Below, one piece after another: positions 8,708 through 19,695 of a stretch of 64,000 bases of DNA. Each line of letters opens with the position of its first letter. Positions within the stretch are counted from its first letter, which is position 1. The notes under the pieces were generated by a model, which had not been told where the DNA came from, did not search any database, and worked only from the letters and a program-made list of their open reading frames with translations. The position numbers and the translations under genes were made by a program. This stretch comes from Gaetbulibacter sp. S0825 (GTDB taxonomy: Bacteria; Bacteroidota; Bacteroidia; Flavobacteriales; Flavobacteriaceae): positions 1 through 64,000 of the forward strand of contig NZ_JAATJT010000001.1 of assembly GCF_011777505.1 (NCBI RefSeq). The letters are read 5' to 3'.

Positions 8708-8866
8708 CTATCTTTCAGGATTATTTAAAATAACTAAGGCAGCAATAACACCAGGAACCCAGCCACAAAGCCACAATAAAAAGACGATAAAAATTGAACC
8801 ACATCCTTTATCTAAGACTGCTAGAGGTGGGCAAAAAATAGAAAGTAAGACTCTCCAAATACTCAT
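8708..8866 (-). CDS. Pmp3/YqaE family small membrane protein
   Basis: This 52-residue reading frame starts with ATG at 8866 and ends with TAG at 8708. It shows the full signature of the Pmp3/YqaE (UPF0057) family: an N-terminal hydrophobic helix with CPPLAV, a polar DKGCGS turn, and a second helix with LCGWVPGVIAAL. The family consists of two-helix inner-membrane proteins, often induced by salt, cold or membrane stress, which affect membrane potential in yeast. An ECF-type promoter (GTAAC-N16-CGTC) stands 34 bases upstream of its start codon, the same arrangement as at two other genes in this window, which fits stress control. The frame is short and easily missed by gene callers. Confidence 0.92.
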   Translation of the reverse strand: MSIWRVLLSIFCPPLAVLDKGCGSIFIVFLLWLCGWVPGVIAALVILNNPER

Positions 8867-8900: not shown

Positions 8901-8925
8901 GACGCATTTCAAACAGTTTTGTTAC
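8901..8925 (-). promoter_or_regulatory. ECF-type promoter of the Pmp3 gene
   Basis: On the minus strand GTAAC (8925-8921) and CGTC (8904-8901) are 16 bases apart, followed six bases later by GTA. The CGTC ends 34 bases before the ATG. The same motif pair with the same spacing occurs before the genes starting at 12404 and 17882. Confidence 0.65.
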
Positions 8926-8968
8926 ATCAACATAAACCATAATTGAAGAGCTTTATTGTTTACTCAAC

Positions 8969-9856
8969 CTATTTACAAACAGCCTTTAAAGCATCTTTAA
9001 TATCTCCAGGTGTGCTCATTATTTTCATAAATGTTCCCATGGTTAAATCTGGCCAATGCAGTGCTATTCTATACCTACCATGTAACATTGTTGCTTCATT
9101 ACCTTGTAAAATTATTTCGTACGGCAACGCTGCAGCATGAGATTCTCCAATTTTATGTAAAAAATTAGCTTCTCCTTTTTCTGCACTTTGCAAGCCTACT
9201 CCAAAAACAGCTACCTTTTTATTTGGATATACCAATTTGTAGACTTCTATAGAATTTCCTTTTTTAGCTTTTAAATTAGCCTCTATAGTTTTAAGCCCTT
9301 CTTCAAAAGAGGCATATTCGTTTAACTCAACTGGATCGGTAAAATATGGCATTGCTATTTTGTAGTGATACTTTTTTAATTTATCTGCTTTAACCGTTCC
9401 CCCAAATGGCGCAAATTCTTTTCCAATTGATGAAAAAGTTGTTTTAACATCTGCACTAAACTTTTCAAAAGTAGATTGAAAAGTCACATAATTATCTCTT
9501 AAATATGCTCTGAATATATAATCTGGATTCGTATATGAAACCACTACTTTCCCGTCTAATTTAACCAAGCCAACTTTAAAAGCAGCAGCTAAAGCACCTC
9601 TATCGGCAATTTGAACTACTTTGTTTTTAATATCGCTTCTAGTAAATACAACTACTTTTAGAGATGATTTATTTGAAGGGTTATAAGTTCCTAAAATTGT
9701 AAAATTATCGCCTTCTAAAGTAGAAATCACCTTATCATAAGCACTTTGTATAGATTCTGTTAATTCGCCAACTTTTATATAAGGCGATAGTTCTTGTGAA
9801 AATGAATAATACCCAATTACTAGGGTTGCTACTAAACTTAAAATTACTTTTTTCAT
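8969..9856 (-). CDS. Secreted DUF302-domain protein
   Basis: The 295-residue protein has a cleavable signal peptide (MKKVILSLVATL...YSFSQ), so it is periplasmic or exported. The N-terminal part (about 25-165) matches the DUF302 pattern: tandem amphipathic helices, TLEGDNFTILGTYNP, VVVFTRSD and a YTNPDYIFRAY segment. A second region (about 170-290) continues with a related fold containing ALPYEIILQG and MLHGRYRIALHWPDL. DUF302 proteins are small alpha/beta proteins of unknown function. The gene is divergent from lysS, with a perfect 16-base palindrome between them at 9968-9983 that may be an operator. Confidence 0.75.
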   Translation of the reverse strand: MKKVILSLVATLVIGYYSFSQELSPYIKVGELTESIQSAYDKVISTLEGDNFTILGTYNPSNKSSLKVVVFTRSDIKNKVVQIADRGALAAAFKVGLVKLDGKVVVSYTNPDYIFRAYLRDNYVTFQSTFEKFSADVKTTFSSIGKEFAPFGGTVKADKLKKYHYKIAMPYFTDPVELNEYASFEEGLKTIEANLKAKKGNSIEVYKLVYPNKKVAVFGVGLQSAEKGEANFLHKIGESHAAALPYEIILQGNEATMLHGRYRIALHWPDLTMGTFMKIMSTPGDIKDALKAVCK

Positions 9857-9967
9857 TTCTTTATAATTTATTTATATGCTATCTCATGTTTATTTCTCAA
9901 TAATGCACCTAAATGAGGTTTAAATTTGAATAATTAAGCAAAATAACAACCGAAATGGTTTTTAATC

Positions 9968-9983
9968 TATGACTATAGTCATA
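9968..9983. promoter_or_regulatory. Perfect 16-base palindrome, candidate operator
   Basis: TATGACTATAGTCATA reads identically on both strands. It lies between the divergent DUF302 gene (start 9856) and lysS (start 10052), at a distance suitable for control of either. No regulator gene is adjacent. It lacks a T-tract, so it is not a terminator. Confidence 0.4.
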
Positions 9984-10021
9984 ATTATTAAAAAGATGCT
10001 TTCCCTTTTTTCTAAATAGTT

Positions 10022-10029
10022 TAATTTTG
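10022..10029 (+). promoter_or_regulatory. Putative -7 box of lysS
   Basis: TAATTTTG matches TAnnTTTG and lies 22 bases before the lysS ATG at 10052. No clear -33 TTTG is present. Confidence 0.5.
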
Positions 10030-10051
10030 GCGTTTTAAAACCTTAATTATC

Positions 10052-11743
10052 ATGCAGCTTTCTGAACAAGAAATAGTACGACGCGAAAAGCTTAAAAATT
10101 TAAGAGCTTTAGGTATCGACCCTTATCCAGCAAATTTATATCCAGTAGACCATACATCTAAACAGATAAAACAGGATTTCACTGAAGGGAAACAGGTTGT
10201 TATTGCTGGTAGATTAATGTCTAGACGTATTCAAGGAAAGGCGTCGTTTGCTGAGCTACAGGATAGCGAAGGTCGTATACAAGTCTATTTTAATCGCGAC
10301 GAAATTTGCACTGGAGAAGACAAAACATTATACAATGATGTCTACAAAAAACTACTAGATATTGGTGATTTTATTGGTATTGAAGGTGAATTGTTCACAA
10401 CACAAGTAGGTGAAAAAACAGTGATGGTTAAAAACTTTATCGTGTTAAGTAAATCGCTAAAACCATTGCCATTACCAAAAACAGATGCCGAAGGAAACAC
10501 GCATGATGAGTTCAACGACCCTGAAATGCGTTACAGACAACGCTATGCCGATTTAGTAGTGAACCCAAAAGTAAAAGACACGTTTGTAAAACGTACGCAA
10601 ATAACCAATACCATTCGTGAGTTTTATAACGACATGGGCTTTTTGGAAGTAGAAACACCTATTTTACAACCCATTCCTGGTGGCGCAGCTGCAAGACCTT
10701 TTATGACGCATCACAATGCATTAAATATTCCTTTATACTTACGAATTGCTAACGAACTATATTTAAAACGATTGATTGTTGGTGGTTTTGATGGTGTATA
10801 TGAGTTTGCCAAAGATTTCAGAAATGAAGGCATGGACAGAACGCATAACCCAGAATTTACGGTTATGGAAATGTATGCTGCTTACAAAGATTATAACTGG
10901 ATGATGGACACCACAGAAGAGCTTCTAGAAAAGATTGCTATGAAATTACATGGCACTACTGAAGTGGAGTTCAATGGTAAAATGATTGACTATAAAGCAC
11001 CTTATAAGCGTATTGGAATTCTGGACGCCATAAAAGAGCATACAGGTTTTGATTTATATCAAAAATCGGAAGATGAGATACGCAACGCTTGTAAAGCATT
11101 AGACATTGAAGTAGATGAAACATTTGGTATTGGTAAAATGATTGATGAAATTTTTGGAGAAAAATGTGAACCACATTACATTCAACCAACATTTATTATT
11201 GATTACCCAACCGAAATGAGTCCGCTGACTAAAAAGCATCGCTCTAAAGAAGGTTTAACCGAGCGCTTTGAGCTAATGGTAAATGGAAAAGAATTAGCGA
11301 ATGCTTATTCTGAGTTAAATGACCCAATTGAGCAGCGCGAACGTTTTGAAGACCAATTAAAACTCTCTGAAAAAGGTGATGATGAAGCTATGTTTATAGA
11401 CCACGACTTTTTACGTGCTTTAGAATACGGAATGCCTCCAACATCTGGTATTGGTATTGGTATTGACAGACTAACAATGTTTATGACAAATAACCCATCA
11501 ATACAAGAAGTGTTGTTTTTTCCTCAAATGAAACCTGAGAAAAAAGCTATTGAGATGAGCGATAACGAAAAAGCTATTTTCGAGATTTTAAAAACTCAAA
11601 AAAGCATGAACCTCAACGATCTTAAAACACAATCTGGTTTAAGTAATAAAGGTTGGGATAAAGGCATAAAAGGGTTGGCAAAACATGGACTTACTAAAGT
11701 CACTAAAACGGATGATGCTTTAATTGTGGAGTTACAAGATTAA
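10052..11743 (+). CDS. lysS: Lysyl-tRNA synthetase, class II
   Basis: The 563-residue enzyme charges tRNA-Lys. An N-terminal OB-fold anticodon-binding domain (about 50-145, AGRLMSRRIQGKASFAEL) is followed by the class II catalytic core: motif 1 near residue 200 (FLEVETPILQPIPGGAAARPF), motif 2 (FRNEGMDRTHNPEFT), and motif 3 near 470 (GIGIGIDRLTMF). About 65 further residues at the C-terminus (EMSDNEKAIFEIL...) look like a winged-helix extension, a feature often seen in Bacteroidota LysRS. The total length is therefore above the usual 490-510. It ends in a strong bidirectional terminator at 11782-11820. Confidence 0.97.
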   Translation: MQLSEQEIVRREKLKNLRALGIDPYPANLYPVDHTSKQIKQDFTEGKQVVIAGRLMSRRIQGKASFAELQDSEGRIQVYFNRDEICTGEDKTLYNDVYKKLLDIGDFIGIEGELFTTQVGEKTVMVKNFIVLSKSLKPLPLPKTDAEGNTHDEFNDPEMRYRQRYADLVVNPKVKDTFVKRTQITNTIREFYNDMGFLEVETPILQPIPGGAAARPFMTHHNALNIPLYLRIANELYLKRLIVGGFDGVYEFAKDFRNEGMDRTHNPEFTVMEMYAAYKDYNWMMDTTEELLEKIAMKLHGTTEVEFNGKMIDYKAPYKRIGILDAIKEHTGFDLYQKSEDEIRNACKALDIEVDETFGIGKMIDEIFGEKCEPHYIQPTFIIDYPTEMSPLTKKHRSKEGLTERFELMVNGKELANAYSELNDPIEQRERFEDQLKLSEKGDDEAMFIDHDFLRALEYGMPPTSGIGIGIDRLTMFMTNNPSIQEVLFFPQMKPEKKAIEMSDNEKAIFEILKTQKSMNLNDLKTQSGLSNKGWDKGIKGLAKHGLTKVTKTDDALIVELQD

Positions 11744-11781
11744 GTGCTTATTATAGCATTCGTTGCATTATCTCATTATAT

Positions 11782-11820
11782 AAAAAAAAGGAATCACACA
11801 TTGGTGATTCCTTTTTTTTT
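11782..11820. terminator. Bidirectional intrinsic terminator
   Basis: GGAATCAC (11790-11797) pairs with GTGATTCC (11804-11811), with an A-tract on the left and nine T residues on the right. It lies between lysS and the convergent repeat-protein gene and can serve both. Confidence 0.9.
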
Positions 11821-11837
11821 CTCTCTTAAATTGATGT

Positions 11838-12404
11838 TTAGTGGTTTACAACAACTTCAATAGTTTCCTTTGACATGCCTTTATAAGGATCAAATCCTTC
11901 AGGTAAATAAGCCTTAACATCAAAATTAATTTCTATGTCTTCTTCTATCTCAATTAACTCAATAGTATTCCAGTCCAAATCGTTTTTCCCTTTTAAGGCA
12001 TTAAAGTTTTTTGGAAGGTACTTTGAAGTATCAAAACCTATCTCCACTTCTTCTTCAATTTCTATTAATTCAATAGTACTCCAATCTAAATCGTTTTTCC
12101 CTTCTAAGGCGTTAAAGTTATCTGGCAGATACATTGTAGTATCAAAATCTAATTGTACTTCCTCCTCTACTTCAACAACTTCAATCTCATTAACTTCTAG
12201 ATTTTCAGTATTTGTATATTCCTCATTAGTGAAAATTCGTTTTTCTAATTTGTGCATTTCAGTACTCAAATTATCATTTATTGTGTCACCTGTTATATTA
12301 ATCTTAGCAGATATATTTACTGTAAATAATACACTAAGTAAAAGAGTTAATAGGTTTTTATTAAAACTTTTTATGCGGTTTGTTTTTGGTTCAATTGTTT
12401 TCAT
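11838..12404 (-). CDS. Secreted 37-residue-repeat protein, paralogue 1
   Basis: The 188-residue protein starts at ATG 12404 (upstream codons in the same frame are not needed). Residues 1-33 form a signal peptide, preceded by a polar N-region and ending near NISA. Residues 78-176 are three copies of a strongly acidic repeat: E-I-E-E-E-V-x-I-x-F-D-T-x-x-Y-L-P-x-N-F, then NALEGKNDLDW[ST]TIEL[IV]. The first two copies are exactly 37 residues and the third stops at PYKGM. A clear paralogue lies at 17376-17882. I do not recognise the family; export to periplasm or surface is inferred from the signal. An ECF-type promoter precedes it. Confidence 0.85.
   Translation of the reverse strand: MKTIEPKTNRIKSFNKNLLTLLLSVLFTVNISAKINITGDTINDNLSTEMHKLEKRIFTNEEYTNTENLEVNEIEVVEVEEEVQLDFDTTMYLPDNFNALEGKNDLDWSTIELIEIEEEVEIGFDTSKYLPKNFNALKGKNDLDWNTIELIEIEEDIEINFDVKAYLPEGFDPYKGMSKETIEVVVNH
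11877..12173 (-). repeat. Tandem 111-base coding repeats, copy set 1
   Basis: Three imperfect direct repeats of 111 bases (the last shortened to about 75) encode residues 78-114, 115-151 and 152-176 of the secreted protein. The reading frame and the motifs FDT, YLP and NF are preserved, while silent and conservative changes have accumulated, so the repeats are old and kept under selection. Confidence 0.9.
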
Positions 12405-12439
12405 TTTTTTGGTGTTTTTGATTTGATTGATACTTAATA

Positions 12440-12464
12440 GACGACTCAAAATCAAATCTGTTAC
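12440..12464 (-). promoter_or_regulatory. ECF-type promoter of repeat protein paralogue 1
   Basis: On the minus strand GTAAC (12464-12460) and CGTC (12443-12440) are 16 bases apart and GTA follows six bases after CGTC. The start codon lies 35 bases downstream. The sequence aligns well beyond the core with the promoter at 17922-17946. Confidence 0.65.
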
Positions 12465-12617
12465 AGTACTATGTATTACACAATAGTAAATTAACAAATT
12501 TTAACTATTTAAAAGCATATACTAAGGCCAAAACAACAAATAATTAAATCACATTAAGATTATAGAATTACATAATTATCATCCTAAACTTGTTTCAATA
12601 CCACATCGCATATAAAA

Positions 12618-12647
12618 AAGGAAGCGCCATGTTGCTTCCTTTTTTTG
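12618..12647 (+). terminator. Hairpin with T-tract upstream of the hydrolase operon
   Basis: GGAAGC (12620-12625) pairs with GCTTCC (12634-12639), flanked by an A-tract and a T-tract. It stands between divergent genes, 34 bases before the ATG at 12681, so it does not end any visible gene. It may be a leader attenuator or end a short unseen RNA. Confidence 0.7.
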
Positions 12648-12680
12648 TATTTTTAAGCATCTATCACTAAAACAATCATT

Positions 12681-14138
12681 ATGCGTAAAATTTCTCTATT
12701 ATTAATCTTATTTGTTATACTCTTTACTTGTAAAGAAGAACCACAAGAAAATAATGATAAGGACATAACTATTATAGAAAATGGTCTATTAAAAGGCATA
12801 CAGGTAAAAGGAGCAACTCCTGAAACTTTCAATATAGAAGAACGCATGAAAGCTCATAATGTTCCTGGAGTAAGTATTGCAGTTATAGAAAATGGTAAGT
12901 TAAAATGGGCAAAAGGTTATGGTTATGCAAATACAAACACCAATCAAAAAGTGGATGTGCATACTTTGTTTCAAGCAGGTTCTATTAGTAAGCCAGTTGC
13001 TGCATTAGCTGCTTTAAAACTTGTTGACGAAGGTATATTGGATTTAGATGCAGATGTAAGCACTTATCTTAAAAGCTGGAAATTACCAGATTCAAAATTT
13101 ACAGAAATTGAAAAAGTGACTCTTAGACGTTTACTTACGCATACTGCTGGCATGACCGTACATGGGTTTCCTGGTTACACTCAAAAAGATTCATTTCCAA
13201 GTATTAATGCCGTTTTAAATGGAAAAGGGAATACTCCTGTTATTTATGTTGATACCATACCAGGTAGTATATGGAGATATTCTGGAGGTGGTTATACCGT
13301 TATGGAAAAAATAGTAGAAGATGTGAGTGGATTACCTTTAGAAGACTTCATGGCTAAAAATATTTTACCACAAATGAATATGACCAATAGTACATATAGC
13401 CAACCAATAAAAGAAAGCATGCAAAATAATATAAGTGCTGCTTATTATGGTGACGGAAAAATTATTGAAGGGCTTTGGCATAATTATCCTGAGCAAGCGG
13501 CGGCTGGATTATGGACCACACCTTCCGATTTATCAAAATATCTTATTGAAATACATAATATATATGAAAATGGAACTAAAGGAATTCTTTCAAAACACAT
13601 GGTTACTCAAATGCTAACAAAGGACAAAAATAATTGGGGACTTGGACCCTCTTTACGCGAAAATGATAATGCCTTAATTTTTGGACATGGAGGTAAAAAC
13701 GCAGGCTTTACAAACGATATGATGGCTTTTGCCAAAAGTGGCGATGGCGTTATAGTAATGACAAGCGCTGACAATGGCGGAAGGCTTATTGGTGAAATTC
13801 TCCGTTCGGTTTCTAGATATTATGATTGGGGAACACACAACCCAAGAGAAGTTAACATCGTAAAAATACCTAACGATGAACTTGAAAAATATACAGGAAA
13901 ATATCTTTTAGACTTTCAAGTACCAAACATTGGAGATTATATTATTGATGTAACAATAGTAGATGGTAAAATTCGTGCTATAGACCCAGATAATGAAGTG
14001 AATTTATTTACACCAACTGAAAAAACAAAATTTATAGATTTAGATAAAGGTGATCGCATTGAGGCAAAAACCGACGACTCAGGAAACATTAGTTTTCTAT
14101 TAAATGGTCAATATAATTTTAATAAAATAAATGAGTAA
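12681..14138 (+). CDS. Beta-lactamase-class-C-like serine hydrolase, lipoprotein
   Basis: The 485-residue protein has a lipoprotein signal with Cys17 (LFTC) and a serine-hydrolase domain of the class C beta-lactamase/esterase type (PF00144-like). The nucleophile motif is Ser101-Ile-Ser-Lys104, the second motif is YSGGGY near residue 205, and an HGG triad near 350 (FGHGGKNAGF) takes the third position. A C-terminal beta domain with YTGKYL follows (about 395-485). Members act as esterases, D-aminopeptidases or peptidases; resistance to beta-lactams should not be assumed. It is the first gene of a four-gene operon and overlaps the next gene by eight bases. Confidence 0.9.
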   Translation: MRKISLLLILFVILFTCKEEPQENNDKDITIIENGLLKGIQVKGATPETFNIEERMKAHNVPGVSIAVIENGKLKWAKGYGYANTNTNQKVDVHTLFQAGSISKPVAALAALKLVDEGILDLDADVSTYLKSWKLPDSKFTEIEKVTLRRLLTHTAGMTVHGFPGYTQKDSFPSINAVLNGKGNTPVIYVDTIPGSIWRYSGGGYTVMEKIVEDVSGLPLEDFMAKNILPQMNMTNSTYSQPIKESMQNNISAAYYGDGKIIEGLWHNYPEQAAAGLWTTPSDLSKYLIEIHNIYENGTKGILSKHMVTQMLTKDKNNWGLGPSLRENDNALIFGHGGKNAGFTNDMMAFAKSGDGVIVMTSADNGGRLIGEILRSVSRYYDWGTHNPREVNIVKIPNDELEKYTGKYLLDFQVPNIGDYIIDVTIVDGKIRAIDPDNEVNLFTPTEKTKFIDLDKGDRIEAKTDDSGNISFLLNGQYNFNKINE

Positions 14139-14652
14139 AAAACTAATAGTTGTTATTTCTATTTTATCCTCAATATATGGGTGTGCTCAGCAAAATAAAA
14201 TAGCTAAAAACAATGACTCAAAATTAATTAGTGCTGCAAAAGAAATAATGCAGAGCGCTAAAACTTGTGCGCTGGTTACAATAGATGATAAAGGAAGTCC
14301 AAGGGTAAGAACTATGGATCCATTTACTCCTGAAGACGGTTTAATCGTTTGGTTTGGGACCAACAGCAGTTCAAGAAAAGTAAAGCAAATACAAGAAAAT
14401 CCTAATGTGACTTTATACTACGAAGACGTCGATAAAAAAGGTTATGTAATGATACATGGCATTGCAAACATAGTAAATGATAATACCGAAAAAGAAAAAC
14501 ATTGGAAACCAAAATGGAAAGATTTTTATCCTAATTATCCAGATGATTACTTATTAATTAAAGTATCGCCTAATTGGATGGAAATTGTTAGTGAAACACG
14601 AGGCATTTTAGGAAACCCTAAAACTTGGGAACCACAAAGAGTTACATTTTAA
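14131..14652 (+). CDS. Pyridoxamine-phosphate-oxidase-fold lipoprotein
   Basis: The 173-residue protein combines a lipoprotein signal (Cys18 in SIYGC) with a split-barrel flavin-binding domain of the PNPOx type. The core reads CALVTIDDKGSPRVRTM (about 47-63), then GLIVWFGTNSSSRKVKQI and VTLYYEDVDKKGYVMIHG, the strands that usually form the FMN pocket. Members of this fold bind FMN, F420 or haem and often act as reductases. A lipid-anchored, exported version is unusual because most are cytoplasmic. The ATG overlaps the end of the hydrolase gene by eight bases, so translation is probably coupled. Confidence 0.85.
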   Translation: MSKKLIVVISILSSIYGCAQQNKIAKNNDSKLISAAKEIMQSAKTCALVTIDDKGSPRVRTMDPFTPEDGLIVWFGTNSSSRKVKQIQENPNVTLYYEDVDKKGYVMIHGIANIVNDNTEKEKHWKPKWKDFYPNYPDDYLLIKVSPNWMEIVSETRGILGNPKTWEPQRVTF

Positions 14653-14675
14653 TCCTCAAAGGCAATTCAATAAAC

Positions 14676-16268
14676 ATGATACAATCGTACAAACAAAATC
14701 CAACTCTTGAAGAAAAGTATGACACAATAATCATAGGTTCAGGGATGGGAAGTTTAACTTGTGGTGCCATTCTAGCAAAAGAAGGTCAAAAAGTATTAGT
14801 CCTAGAGCAGCATTATACGGCTGGTGGTTTTACTCATGTTTTTAAGCGTAAAGGATACGAATGGGATGTTGGTATTCATTATATTGGCGAAGTAGGTCGC
14901 CCAAAAAGTGCTGTGAAAAAATTATTTGACTATATCACGAATGCAGAATTGAAATGGGCTGATATGGGAGATGTATATGATCGAATTATAATTGGTGATA
15001 AATCTTATGATTTTGTAAAAGGTACTGCCAATTTTAAAGCTAAACTTATCTCCTATTTCCCAGAAGAAGAAAATGCTATTACTGAATACATTAAACTCGC
15101 ATTTGAAGCAAATAAAGCAAGTAGAAAGTTTTTTATGGAAAAAGCAGCTCCTAAATGGATAAGTAATCTTTTTGGTGGCTTCATGCGTAAATCATATCTA
15201 AAATATGCTAACCAAACCACGCATCAAGTTTTAAGTTCCTTAACCACCAATCAAGAACTAATAAAAGTGCTTTCAGGGCAATATGGCGATTATGGCTTAC
15301 CTCCTAAACAAAGTAGTTTTGTGATGCATGCAAGCGTAGTAAGACATTATTTAAGTGGTGGTAATTTCCCTGTTGGAGGCTCTTCTCGAATTGTTGCAAC
15401 TATAGATCCAGTAATTGAATCTGCTGGCGGAATCATATTAGTTAAAGCTGAGGTTGATGAAATTATCATAAAAAACAATACTGCTATTGGTGTGAAAATG
15501 ACTGATGGAAAAGTTATAAATGCCAATAATATAATTAGTGGTGCAGGAATAATAACTACCTATAATAAACTCTTGCCCAAACAAGAATTATTAAAACATA
15601 ATCTTAAAAATAAACTACAAAAAGTAACCCCTTCAGTAGCTCATATATGTTTATACATTGGATTAAATGGCACGCCAGAAGAACTAAATTTATCAAAAAC
15701 TAATTTATGGATTTACCCTGATGATGGTGATCATGATTTATGTGTTGAGCGCTATTTAAATGACAATGATGCTCCTTTTCCGTTAGTTTATATTTCATTT
15801 CCTGCTGCTAAAGATCCAGATTGGAACAATCGCTATCCAGGGAAAAGCACCATTGATGTGCTTACACTAATGCCTTATGAGTTAGTTGAAAAATGGGAAA
15901 ATAGTAAATGGATGAAACGTGGTAATGAATATGATATTTTTAAAGAAAAATTATCACAGCGGCTTTTAAAGATTCTTTTTGAGCATGAACCTCAACTGGT
16001 TGATAAAATTGATCATTACGAACTTTCCACGCCATTAACCACAAAACATTTTGTGAATTACGACAAAGGAGAAATTTATGGTTTAGATCATACACCAAAA
16101 CGTTATCATCAACGGTTTCTTCAGCCAAGAACACCTATTAAAAATTTATACCTTACTGGACAAGATATTGTAACCGCTGGAGTTGCAGCTGCATTATTTT
16201 CGGGTGTTTTAACTACGTCTGCGATGATAGGAAAAAATTTAATAAAAAAGATTATGGCTAAAAATTAA
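14676..16268 (+). CDS. FAD-dependent oxidoreductase, retinol-saturase/carotenoid-isomerase-like
   Basis: Start is taken as ATG 14676 (530 residues), giving the usual short lead before the dinucleotide-binding motif IIIGSGMGSLTCG and the following VLVLEQHYTAGGFTHVF. The order of blocks, including YEWDVGIHYIGEV, GQYGDYGLPP, GGNFPVGGSS and the C-terminal LYLTGQDIVTAGVAAAL, is that of retinol saturase and prolycopene isomerase relatives of phytoene desaturase. These enzymes saturate or isomerise polyene chains using FAD. No signal peptide is present. It lies 23 bases after the PNPOx gene and 9 bases before the paraoxonase-like gene. Its substrate is unknown; no carotenoid synthesis genes are in the window. 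Confidence 0.9.
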   Translation: MIQSYKQNPTLEEKYDTIIIGSGMGSLTCGAILAKEGQKVLVLEQHYTAGGFTHVFKRKGYEWDVGIHYIGEVGRPKSAVKKLFDYITNAELKWADMGDVYDRIIIGDKSYDFVKGTANFKAKLISYFPEEENAITEYIKLAFEANKASRKFFMEKAAPKWISNLFGGFMRKSYLKYANQTTHQVLSSLTTNQELIKVLSGQYGDYGLPPKQSSFVMHASVVRHYLSGGNFPVGGSSRIVATIDPVIESAGGIILVKAEVDEIIIKNNTAIGVKMTDGKVINANNIISGAGIITTYNKLLPKQELLKHNLKNKLQKVTPSVAHICLYIGLNGTPEELNLSKTNLWIYPDDGDHDLCVERYLNDNDAPFPLVYISFPAAKDPDWNNRYPGKSTIDVLTLMPYELVEKWENSKWMKRGNEYDIFKEKLSQRLLKILFEHEPQLVDKIDHYELSTPLTTKHFVNYDKGEIYGLDHTPKRYHQRFLQPRTPIKNLYLTGQDIVTAGVAAALFSGVLTTSAMIGKNLIKKIMAKN

Positions 16269-16277
16269 TCTCTGATT

Positions 16278-17321
16278 ATGAAAAAATCTGTAAAAATTTT
16301 AATCATCTTCGTTCTTCTCATTGTTATTTTTGTTGCTTATACTTTTATTTCAACAGGTTATTTTAGAACTATTGAAAACACTTTTAATGGTAGCATTGTT
16401 AAACAAATTAACCTTCCAGGAGCTGAAGACATAACTATTAGCCACCAAGATAGTTTTGCAATCATATCATCAACAAAAAGAGGCATGTATCCTCCCAAAG
16501 AAAACGAAATTGGTGGCTTATATTTTATGGATTTAAAGAATCAAGAATTCAACGTTATTCCATTAACATCTTCTTTTAATAAACCGTTTGCACCTCATGG
16601 TATTTCATTAAAAAAACTTAATAGCTCCTATAAAATTATGGCAATTAACCATACGTTGTCTGGGCATTCTATTGAGGTGTTCAATCTTAAAAACAAAACT
16701 TTAACACATGAAGAAACTTTGAAAGATGAGTCAATGATAAGTCCAAATGATGTTGTTATGATTAACGATAATACGTTTTATTTTACCAACGACCACAAGT
16801 ACGCTGAAGGTTTTGGGAGGCTTACCGAAGATTATATAGGACGCTCTTTATCCAACGTTATCTATTTCGATGGAACATCTTATAGAGAAGTTGCTAATGG
16901 AATTGCATATGCCAATGGTATTAATTATGATGCAAAACGCAATTTGCTTTTTGTTGCTTCACCTAGAAAATTTCTAATCAAAGTTTACAATGTGTTAACT
17001 GATGGTTCATTAGAGTTTATTGAAGATATTGATTGTGGAACTGGAGTCGATAATATTGAATTCGATAAAGAAGGACAATTGTGGGTTGGAGCTCATCCTA
17101 ACTTGTTGAGATTTACGTCTTATGCTAAAGGAAAAAAGGAGTATTCTCCTTCAGAAATTATTAAAATTGATTATAGAGGAACAAATGATTATTCAGTAGA
17201 AATCATTTACCTTGAAGATGGTAAAACCATGTCTGGCTCAACTGTGGCTGCTCCGTTTGACAAATATATACTTACGGGAAATGTAATGGATGATACTTTC
17301 TTACTGCTTAAACAAAAATAA
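16278..17321 (+). CDS. Paraoxonase/arylesterase-like six-bladed propeller protein, membrane-anchored
   Basis: The 347-residue protein has an N-terminal membrane helix (about 5-25) and a beta-propeller that follows animal paraoxonases block by block: PHGISL, SPNDVVMI, FYFTNDHKY, IAYANGINYD, GVDNIEF, LWVGAHPN and a late GSTVAAPFDKYILTG. These contain the Asn and Asp residues that bind the two calcium ions in PON1. Paraoxonases hydrolyse lactones and aryl esters; some quench acyl-homoserine lactones. It is the last gene of the operon. The hairpin just downstream has its T-tract on the other strand, so it mainly serves the convergent gene. Confidence 0.85.
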   Translation: MKKSVKILIIFVLLIVIFVAYTFISTGYFRTIENTFNGSIVKQINLPGAEDITISHQDSFAIISSTKRGMYPPKENEIGGLYFMDLKNQEFNVIPLTSSFNKPFAPHGISLKKLNSSYKIMAINHTLSGHSIEVFNLKNKTLTHEETLKDESMISPNDVVMINDNTFYFTNDHKYAEGFGRLTEDYIGRSLSNVIYFDGTSYREVANGIAYANGINYDAKRNLLFVASPRKFLIKVYNVLTDGSLEFIEDIDCGTGVDNIEFDKEGQLWVGAHPNLLRFTSYAKGKKEYSPSEIIKIDYRGTNDYSVEIIYLEDGKTMSGSTVAAPFDKYILTGNVMDDTFLLLKQK

Positions 17322-17345
17322 AAAAGCCAGCACAATGTGCTGGCC
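17321..17345 (-). terminator. Terminator of repeat protein paralogue 2
   Basis: GCCAGCAC (17326-17333) pairs perfectly with GTGCTGGC (17337-17344) around a three-base loop. The T-tract lies on the minus strand only, 31 bases beyond the stop of the minus-strand gene at 17376, so it terminates that gene. Bases just right of it on the plus strand are not T-rich. Confidence 0.8.
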
Positions 17346-17375
17346 TGGGATCTTTATTAATAATCTTTGGCAAAA

Positions 17376-17882
17376 TTAATAAAGACTCACTACTATATTT
17401 TCTTTTTCACATTTCATTCCTCTATAAGGATTAAATCCTCTTGGTAAATATTTACTTGTGTCAAATCCAAGTTCAATCTCCTCTTCAATTTCTACTATTT
17501 CAATTTTTGACCAATCAATATCATTTTTTCCTTCTAATGCATTAAAATTTTCAGGTAGATATTGCGCTGTATCAAAATCTATTTCAATAGTTTCTTCAAT
17601 CTCAACTAATTCAATTGTAGACCAATCGATATCGTTTTTCCCTTCTAAAGGATTAAAATCTTCTGGCAAATACTTTTTTGTATCAAAATCGATATATACT
17701 TCTTCTTCAATTTCATAAACCTCAAAAAGACTTTCGTCTGTGTCACTTTCAAAAAGTGTAGCTTCAAGGTTTATTTGTACTAACGTTTTATAATTTTTTT
17801 TAGTATTATCGGGACTCATTCCAGATAATGCACTAGCATTGGTTGCTATAAATACTGCTAATAATAAGATTAATCGGTTCAT
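17376..17882 (-). CDS. Secreted 37-residue-repeat protein, paralogue 2
   Basis: The 168-residue protein has a signal peptide cleaved near NASA (residue 18) and three copies of the same acidic repeat as paralogue 1: residues 57-93, 94-130 and 131-155. Units read E-I-E-E-x-[VI]-x-[IL]-x-F-D-T-x-x-Y-L-P-x-x-F, then N-[PA]-L-E-G-K-N-D-I-D-W, with the last unit ending PYRGM. The C-terminal tail differs (KCEKENIVVSLY against SKETIEVVVNH). The conserved Trp, FDT and YLP motifs suggest a small repeated fold. The promoter region is also homologous to that of paralogue 1. Function is unknown. Confidence 0.85.
   Translation of the reverse strand: MNRLILLLAVFIATNASALSGMSPDNTKKNYKTLVQINLEATLFESDTDESLFEVYEIEEEVYIDFDTKKYLPEDFNPLEGKNDIDWSTIELVEIEETIEIDFDTAQYLPENFNALEGKNDIDWSKIEIVEIEEEIELGFDTSKYLPRGFNPYRGMKCEKENIVVSLY
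17418..17714 (-). repeat. Tandem 111-base coding repeats, copy set 2
   Basis: Three direct repeats of 111 bases (last one shortened) encode the acidic units of the second secreted repeat protein. Short stretches are still identical at DNA level with set 1 at 11877-12173, for example the ATCGTTTTTCCCTTCTAA run, showing common descent. Confidence 0.9.
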
Positions 17883-17921
17883 AATATTTTTGGTTTTTTT
17901 GTTTTGTTTTTATACTCTATT

Positions 17922-17946
17922 GACGTTTAAAAAACCAAAACGTTAC
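17922..17946 (-). promoter_or_regulatory. ECF-type promoter of repeat protein paralogue 2
   Basis: On the minus strand GTAAC (17946-17942) and CGTC (17925-17922) are 16 bases apart with GTA six bases after CGTC. The start codon lies 39 bases downstream. This is the third instance of the motif in the window. Confidence 0.65.
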
Positions 17947-18032: not shown

Positions 18033-18857
18033 TTATTGTAGAATCTCTTTGATAAGTTTATGATACTCATCAAACTCATTTAGGTTATTGTGACCTCCGT
18101 TTTCTATAACTGTAAAGGTCGTTTTGTCTTTTGGTGATTCTTTGTGCAATTTTTCTCCACTGCTAAAAGGCACAACAAAATCATTTGTACCATGAATTAT
18201 TGAAATGGGACATTTAGCATGTTTAATATGTTGGTTGTTTTGCAACCTGTATTTAAGCAGATTCTTAATAGGAAATATTGGAAACCGTTTTTTGGCAACA
18301 TCTTCAATATTATAAAAGGGAGATTCTAAAATTAGTTTTTTTGGATTTTTTATTGATGCCATTTTCGTCGCCATTGCAGACCCTAATGAACGTCCATAAA
18401 CAATAATATGTTCTTCGTTCCAAAATTGTTCTAAATGCTCATAGCATACTTTTGCATCATTATATAATGCTTCTTCACTCAAAACACCCTTGCTTTTCCC
18501 ATAAGTTCTATAGTCCATAACATAAACATCATAATCCATGGCCACTAAGTACTCAACAATCTTACTCCATCGTTGTAAACTTCCAGCGTTTCCATGAAAA
18601 TATAATATTGCTCCTTTCGGATTGTTTGCCTTTATGTGCAAAGTATTTATAACACCATTATTTGGTGTGTCTAGAAAATACTCGTCATACTCATAAGCTA
18701 ATTCATACGTATAATCTAGAGGCAACGTTTCTGGTAAAAACAAAAATTTCTCTTGTAATACATAAAGGGCAGTTCCAACCATAATATAAAGCCCTAAAAG
18801 AATTAGAGCGAATTTTTTAAGCTTTTGCTTTAGATTTTTTGGACGAGTGTATGACAT
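18033..18857 (-). CDS. Alpha/beta hydrolase, membrane-anchored (tandem copy 2)
   Basis: The 274-residue protein has an N-terminal membrane helix (about 15-35) and an alpha/beta-hydrolase domain like ABHD13/Bem46 proteins. The oxyanion motif is FHGNAG (88-93), the nucleophile Ser157 sits in GRSLGS, the acid is Asp226 in HGTND, and His256 lies in GGHNNL. Substrates of this group are usually unknown esters or thioesters. Its start overlaps the end of the upstream paralogue by 41 bases, a large but plausible overlap because the N-terminal residues lead directly into the membrane helix. The two genes are a tandem duplication. Confidence 0.88.
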   Translation of the reverse strand: MSYTRPKNLKQKLKKFALILLGLYIMVGTALYVLQEKFLFLPETLPLDYTYELAYEYDEYFLDTPNNGVINTLHIKANNPKGAILYFHGNAGSLQRWSKIVEYLVAMDYDVYVMDYRTYGKSKGVLSEEALYNDAKVCYEHLEQFWNEEHIIVYGRSLGSAMATKMASIKNPKKLILESPFYNIEDVAKKRFPIFPIKNLLKYRLQNNQHIKHAKCPISIIHGTNDFVVPFSSGEKLHKESPKDKTTFTVIENGGHNNLNEFDEYHKLIKEILQ

Positions 18858-19695
18858 TTATACTTGTTGTTGAAAAATCGATATCTACTGGTTTCGAATT
18901 AATGATTTCTTCAATCATTTTATGGTAAGACTCAAAATTATTCAAATTTTTATGCCCTCCACCAATTACTGTGTGTAATTTAGTTTGTTTGGGATTAACT
19001 TGAGATAGCTTAACACTAGATTTATAAGGAATTAACTTATCATGAGTACCGTGAATAATATGAATTGGACACTGTACGTATTTTAACCATTTGTAAGTTG
19101 GTAAAGGATATTTCATTAACAATGACAAAGGCATAAAAGGCATATAACGCCCAGTAACTTTAGTTAAACTGTAATATGGCGCATCCAATATTAAAAGTCT
19201 GGGATTATTAATGGACGCTAACTTAGCTGCGAAGCCTGAACCTAACGAACGACCATACAAAATAATATGCTCCTCTGGAGTTCGCTCTTTTAACTTATTA
19301 TAAACTTCTTGCAAATCTCTTTTAATCGCTTTTTGCGAACGTCTTCCTGTGCTTTTACCAAATCCTCGATAGTCAACCATAAACACACTGTAATCATGTC
19401 GTGTAAAATCTACAGCAAATTTCCCCCAACCTTTAATACTTTTAGAATTTCCTTTTAAATACAGTACAATACCTTTTGGCTGATTTTTACTTTTAAATAG
19501 CAGCCCATTTATTTTGGCGCCATCACGTGTTTCTAGAAAGTATTCTTTAGTGTCTTGGTTTTCGTAAGCGAATTGAAAATCCTTATCTAGCTTTTCTGGT
19601 TTAAACAACAAATAATCTTGTAAATAATACAAGGCTATACTTATCACGATATACGCAACAAGAATAATCAAAACAATTTGCAACCAATAAGGCAT
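18817..19695 (-). CDS. Alpha/beta hydrolase, membrane-anchored (tandem copy 1)
   Basis: The 292-residue paralogue of the next gene has a membrane helix at residues 4-24 and the triad Ser150 (GRSLGS), Asp219 (HGTHD) and His248 (GGHKNL). The expected oxyanion sequence HGN is changed to KGN (residues 81-83), whereas the downstream copy keeps HGN. The C-terminus has a lysine-rich tail after a Thr/Ser-rich stretch, and this tail overlaps the start of the downstream gene. The altered oxyanion region suggests changed activity, though the full triad argues against complete loss. It is transcribed away from the diheme cytochrome gene. Confidence 0.87.
   Translation of the reverse strand: MPYWLQIVLIILVAYIVISIALYYLQDYLLFKPEKLDKDFQFAYENQDTKEYFLETRDGAKINGLLFKSKNQPKGIVLYLKGNSKSIKGWGKFAVDFTRHDYSVFMVDYRGFGKSTGRRSQKAIKRDLQEVYNKLKERTPEEHIILYGRSLGSGFAAKLASINNPRLLILDAPYYSLTKVTGRYMPFMPLSLLMKYPLPTYKWLKYVQCPIHIIHGTHDKLIPYKSSVKLSQVNPKQTKLHTVIGGGHKNLNNFESYHKMIEEIINSKPVDIDFSTTSINVIHSSKKSKAKA

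Follow-up and report, generated by a model that had tools for sequence, protein, structure and literature searches.

The first 64,000 nt of contig C3 of Gaetbulibacter sp. S0825 (C3:1-64000, the window of this analysis; the 3.155 Mb genome is G000 here, with G-numbers denoting genomes and L-numbers loci) carry three minus-strand genes that are each preceded by the same bipartite element, GTAAC-N16-CGTC, which resembles a promoter for an extracytoplasmic function (ECF) sigma factor. The first gene, at 8708..8866, encodes a Pmp3 family membrane protein of 52 aa (Pfam PF01679, 42.5 bits against a gathering cut-off of 22.9), and its candidate promoter lies at 8901..8925. The other two genes encode acidic repeat proteins that are 56% identical to each other: repeat protein 1 (188 aa, 11838..12404, element at 12440..12464) and repeat protein 2 (168 aa, 17376..17882, element at 17922..17946). 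All three elements are exact matches on the minus strand, and those of the two repeat genes are also exact in front of their homologues in the genus. A preliminary description of this DNA had reported the three sites with a 16-base spacer, a GTA six bases past CGTC, and 34, 35 and 39 bases to the ATG; we confirmed each of these details.

The window holds no exact match besides these three, while in 100 dinucleotide shuffles the mean was 0.04 and the maximum 1, which agrees with the earlier estimate that three occurrences exceed chance. When one mismatch is allowed there are 7 matches against 3.4 expected, so that the excess resides in the exact form of the motif. Over the whole genome the exact motif occurs 16 times, compared with 5 times for the reversed pattern. 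Fifteen of the 16 sites lie outside other open reading frames (ORFs) of at least 100 aa and 17-62 nt 5' of an ORF start; these include L014, where the downstream start is TTG, and L002, which was scored as outside since the frame around it is the gene that it precedes, read from a TTG further upstream. The sixteenth (L025) lies antisense within an ORF. The concern that the motif might be equally frequent inside genes is thus not borne out. The spacer length matters as well: with N15 none of 9 sites and with N17 only 2 of 8 are outside ORFs (2/17 together; Fisher p = 2e-6 vs N16). The scan proposed earlier, over spacers of 15 to 17 bases, therefore holds up for N16, whose sites are mostly outside genes and before starts, and not for N15 and N17, whose sites fall mostly inside genes.

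One of the N16 sites outside the window lies 43 nt 5' of an ECF sigma factor gene at C4:211383-211889. Its product matches Pfam Sigma70_r2 and r4, i.e. regions 2 and 4 only, and scores 234.7 bits with NCBIfam model NF058625 (the GFO_1088/PG0214 family; cut-off 130); among 19 matches to this model in the genome it is the single gene over the cut-off. Its closest named relatives are found in Pontimicrobium aquaticum (95% identical) and in a metagenome-assembled genome labelled Lacinutrix sp. (99%). The 300 nt upstream of the 18 other sigma-like genes contain no exact N16 site, and two of these genes have a site with one mismatch. The sigma gene is followed by a gene for a 167-aa anti-sigma-like protein with one predicted transmembrane segment and by two genes for DUF4252 proteins (GFO_1090 and GFO_1091 families), an order found in all 77 named loci whose sequence extends far enough downstream (of 80 in total, the other 3 ended too early). 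The search for an ECF/anti-sigma pair suggested in the preliminary description has thus yielded a candidate pair, and one that carries the same promoter motif. The anti-sigma-like protein matched no known anti-sigma family in Pfam or NCBIfam; 30 of its 32 invariant columns are in the N-terminal half, up to the transmembrane segment, as would be expected if the N-terminal part binds the sigma factor. For the DUF4252 lipoprotein a structural model with a mean predicted local distance difference test score (pLDDT) of 81.5 was obtained, and we make no claim about its fold because no PDB match was found at E <= 0.001 (best 0.029, with a template modelling score of ~0.3). Weak profile matches of the DUF4252 and anti-sigma-like proteins to PDB sequences, and of the anti-sigma-like protein to Pfam, were taken as chance.

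The sigma gene itself has an exact N16 site within 200 nt upstream in all 80 named ECF orthologues (80-99% identical, taken as the top 80 among 533 relatives), as compared to 2 of 4578 same-strand control blocks. In a set made up of the own genome and relatives, which overlaps in species with the named orthologues, the self-promoter is exact in 27 of 30 ECF loci and has one mismatch in the other 3; it is also exact in front of two more divergent ECF genes (48-49% identical). We also drew 148 genomes across the phylum, our own included, of which 30 had an ECF match at E <= 1e-35; 29 loci besides our own were read, with two second copies left out. At the level of the family 12 of 14 self-promoters were exact, at the level of the class 3 of 7 (plus one exact site with N17), at the level of the order 0 of 2 and in the rest of the phylum 1 of 6, the non-exact ones showing one or two mismatches.

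All exact sites were also read in three other genera, where 13/18 (G022), 8/18 (G019) and 15/22 (G024) lie outside genes, and in two genomes lacking the ECF gene, where none do (0/6 and 0/5). That the motif is a chance resemblance within AT-rich intergenic DNA is scarcely credible given these 0/11 sites, the shuffles, the spacer control and the 80 orthologues, even if the motif is short and exact sites also occur inside genes in 6 of 6 genomes read. The GTA six bases past CGTC, which the preliminary description had included in the motif, did not prove general: it is present at 16 of 51 sites outside ORFs and at 0 of 34 inside in these six genomes (counting the three in the window), and in only 3 of 27 ECF self-promoters and 1 of 16 DUF456 promoters.

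The Pmp3 gene provides a link between the motif and the presence of the sigma factor. Taking the best Pmp3 match per genome, found in 38 of 60 genomes, we observed an exact promoter in 23 of 32 genomes with the GFO_1088 ECF and in 0 of 6 without it (p = 0.002, ignoring kinship); with the own genus removed the figures are 17/26 and 0/6 (p = 0.006, again ignoring kinship). At our first ECF threshold, E < 1e-45, these counts were 23/31 with the ECF, 0/6 without and 0/1 for a weak match in G059; counting G059 as ECF-containing weakens the test (p from 5e-4 to 0.002). The family model NF058625 itself was run on 13 genomes. One of the six ECF-lacking genomes, G048 from another family, has an ECF-like gene of 123 bits, below the cut-off of 130, and here the sites of both the ECF-like gene and Pmp3 deviate as CGTT, which leaves the Pmp3 site with one mismatch.

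Further candidate targets behave similarly. For the DUF4870 gene the promoter is exact in 24 of 28 genomes with the ECF (at L296 the site is 27 nt 5' of the gene); of two ECF-lacking genomes, G036 has an exact site and G045 none. For DUF456, where 30 of 48 matching genomes were read, 16 of 27 genomes with the ECF have an exact site and 19 of 27 a site with at most one mismatch, against 0 of 3 without the ECF; by eye, the upstream regions in G053 and G040 show no motif. A small protein of 85 aa (L031 type) has an exact promoter in 13 of 14 cases, all in genomes with the ECF. The ECF, Pmp3 and DUF4870 genes are downstream of a site in 4 of 4 ECF genomes read, and DUF456 and an outer-membrane barrel in 3 of 4. 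Homologues of the ECF, Pmp3, DUF4870 and DUF456 genes hence retain the motif, contrary to the possibility, raised earlier, that it is not conserved upstream of homologues. Other sites in the own genome precede genes for a VTT protein, a sub-cut-off DoxX match, a rhodanese, a methyltransferase, an ABC ATPase, a protein of the Pfam family Beta-lactamase and a lipoprotein-like protein. Two more motif-preceded families, unseen at exact sites of the own genome, were encountered in G022 and G024 (L229/L276 and L234/L274).

Repeat proteins 1 and 2 each have a signal-like N-terminus, as judged by eye, and three acidic repeats around YLPxxFNAL. Neither has a Pfam or NCBIfam match at E up to 0.01, and a structure prediction for repeat protein 2 from a two-sequence alignment was uninformative (mean pLDDT 31). 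Within the genus the exact motif stands before 9 of 10 distinct repeat genes, the miss being a third copy in G002. In G004, a homologue of repeat protein 2 (L129) has two in-frame stops within the matched region and reads open up to 158 aa.

The sequences themselves show the motif, where it lies, how well it is conserved, that it stands in front of the sigma gene and that it co-occurs with the sigma factor. These observations are in line with the earlier reading of the sites as ECF-type promoters: the motif is rarer inside genes in this genome, is kept 5' of homologues and precedes an ECF gene. On this basis we consider it probable that the three window sites are promoters of one alternative-sigma regulon, with the single-copy ECF of the GFO_1088/PG0214 family as the most likely sigma factor. 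The three window genes would then seem to belong to a single, ancient programme of membrane protection.

It could be argued instead that the motif is not a promoter at all, but the operator of a conventional DNA-binding regulator, since the evidence at hand is position and conservation. We regard this as very improbable: the site is asymmetric, has a rigid 16-base gap and a fixed orientation at a short distance from starts, and precedes a sigma gene, while its AAC and CGTC elements fit ECF promoters.

Several results weigh against a single regulon with one sigma factor. When N15 to N17 are pooled, the count in the own genome is 33 and that of the reversed-pattern control 53; as N16 taken by itself exceeds its control, it is the N16 spacing and the position that carry the signal. 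Likewise, of the 32 family genomes with the ECF only 19 have more N16 sites than reversed-pattern sites, and counts by themselves would thus have missed the regulon. The fraction of exact sites outside genes in G019 is low, as given above, and a drifted variant of the promoter showed no excess in three distant genomes (45, 35 and 17 sites vs 49, 50 and 31 for the reversed pattern). At the Pmp3 gene, 6 of the 31 genomes of the E < 1e-45 ECF set have at least two mismatches, and G059 is over the NF058625 cut-off yet is without the Pmp3 motif. Finally, the repeat genes of six other genera have no exact site (0/6; 2/6 with one mismatch). In five of these six the repeat gene and Pmp3 share a strand, with the repeat gene ~4-11 kb further upstream. 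As the Pmp3 motif is seen across genera and the repeat-gene motif in the genus only, the link to Pmp3 is old and that to the repeat proteins either young or fast-evolving; the regulon proposed in the preliminary description, which joined Pmp3 with the repeat family, is therefore supported across genera for Pmp3 and is firm only within the genus for the repeat proteins.

Two further points of this kind bear on an arrangement that we hold to be possible but distinctly less likely, in which at least two ECFs have the GTAAC -35 element in common: the GFO_1088 sigma would serve its own operon, and a second ECF would serve Pmp3, DUF4870 and the repeat genes, wholly or in part. The base before CGTC is T in 26 of 27 self-promoters, and A or G in 18 of 20 Pmp3 and 20 of 24 DUF4870 promoters; this difference by target (TCGTC vs ACGTC or GCGTC) could mean two sigma factors. 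The N6-GTA extension, too, varies from target to target. In addition, NF058625 finds no gene over its cut-off in G036, and yet 4 of the 9 sites of this genome are outside ORFs and its DUF4870 site is exact, so that a second sigma of overlapping specificity is conceivable. Other ECF genes do have related upstream sites, namely GCAAC-N16-CGTC, or GTAACC-N17 followed by AGTC or CGTC. Nevertheless, the Pmp3 sites occur in step with the GFO_1088 ECF, the ECF-like gene and Pmp3 of G048 deviate alike as CGTT, and the other sigma-like genes of the own genome all lack an exact N16 site upstream. This arrangement overlaps with the single-sigma regulon that we favour, because the latter concerns the promoter type first.

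As for these related sites, GCAAC-N16-CGTC, often followed by TTTAA, was seen upstream of another ECF class in several genera (L377, L381, L382, L383, L386), and GTAACC-N17 with AGTC or CGTC upstream of a different class (L376, L384, L385). In the own genome an ECF gene of the GTAACC-N17 class is divergent from a DUF6249 gene that bears an N17 site of its own (L028, C5:390311); GTAACC-N17 sites of other ECFs may explain the N17 site in front of this gene. It may be that spacing separates ECF regulons.

We suggest the following mechanism for the regulon of the GFO_1088 family sigma. Envelope or membrane stress would release the sigma factor from the putative membrane anti-sigma protein, and RNA polymerase carrying the released sigma would transcribe from GTAAC-N16-CGTC promoters. 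By autoregulation the sigma would drive its own operon (sigma, anti-sigma-like protein and two DUF4252 proteins), amplifying the response, and it may likewise drive the 14 further candidate promoters of the own genome. Membrane or envelope genes follow many of them: Pmp3, DUF4870, DUF456, VTT, the weak DoxX match, the outer-membrane barrel and the repeat proteins. The cell would presumably benefit from such a response. We also speculate, much more tentatively, that this is a Bacteroidota-wide membrane-defence regulon in which the two DUF4252 proteins, one exported and one a lipoprotein, act as envelope sensors controlling the anti-sigma protein, and for which lineage-specific secreted repeat proteins were recruited as effectors.

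Bacteroidota have many ECF sigma factors, and to our knowledge few of these have an assigned promoter. In Bacillus subtilis, sigma-W is controlled by a membrane anti-sigma factor and is autoregulated. Its regulon has envelope-stress and membrane-protein genes as targets (PMC3498285), so that the two systems would work alike; they differ in accessory genes, and our ECF is outside the SigW model (TIGR02948, 53.9 bits vs a cut-off of 243.1). The nearest described system is SM6 of Flavobacterium psychrophilum, whose promoters were attributed to an ECF sigma and carry CGT as their -10 box (PMC9723704). That study does not settle which of seven ECFs is responsible. SM6 and our candidate regulon are alike in this box, in the attribution to an ECF, and in having a rhodanese, an ABC ATPase and an ECF with its anti-sigma factor (putative in our case) among their genes. 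They differ in that SM6 has type IX secretion components, none of which were recognised after the 15 sites of the own genome. Porphyromonas gingivalis PG_0214-0217, given in the relevant parts of one paper as a sigma factor, a putative anti-sigma factor, a DUF4252 protein and a hypothetical protein (PMC10101095), has the same gene order, and our sigma is a member of the same family by its NF058625 score. Another paper also lists PG0214 as an ECF factor of P. gingivalis, and its relevant passages assign it no regulon (PMC9862357).

Among the matches listed in the open-licence literature no target promoter or regulon of the GFO_1088/PG0214 family was found, nor was the regulon itself described in titles or abstract openings; on the motif, on DUF4252 together with ECF or on Pmp3 together with ECF, no paper was found in the open-licence literature. 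The GFO_1088 promoter and regulon are thus the new proposal here, while the sigma family and the operon were already known. A conserved ECF family thereby gains a testable promoter and a core list of targets. The proposal also places bacterial Pmp3, DUF4870, DUF456 and the DUF4252 pair in a regulatory context and offers a first hint at the function of the repeat proteins.

Elsewhere in the window, a beta-lactamase-like protein and two adjoining alpha/beta hydrolases, by ORF reading, are encoded at 12681-14138 and 18033-19695, interspersed with the candidate regulon genes but lacking an exact motif themselves. Among the other genomes, G030 shows a strong strand bias of exact N16 sites (29 forward vs 7 reverse), perhaps reflecting a repeat family.

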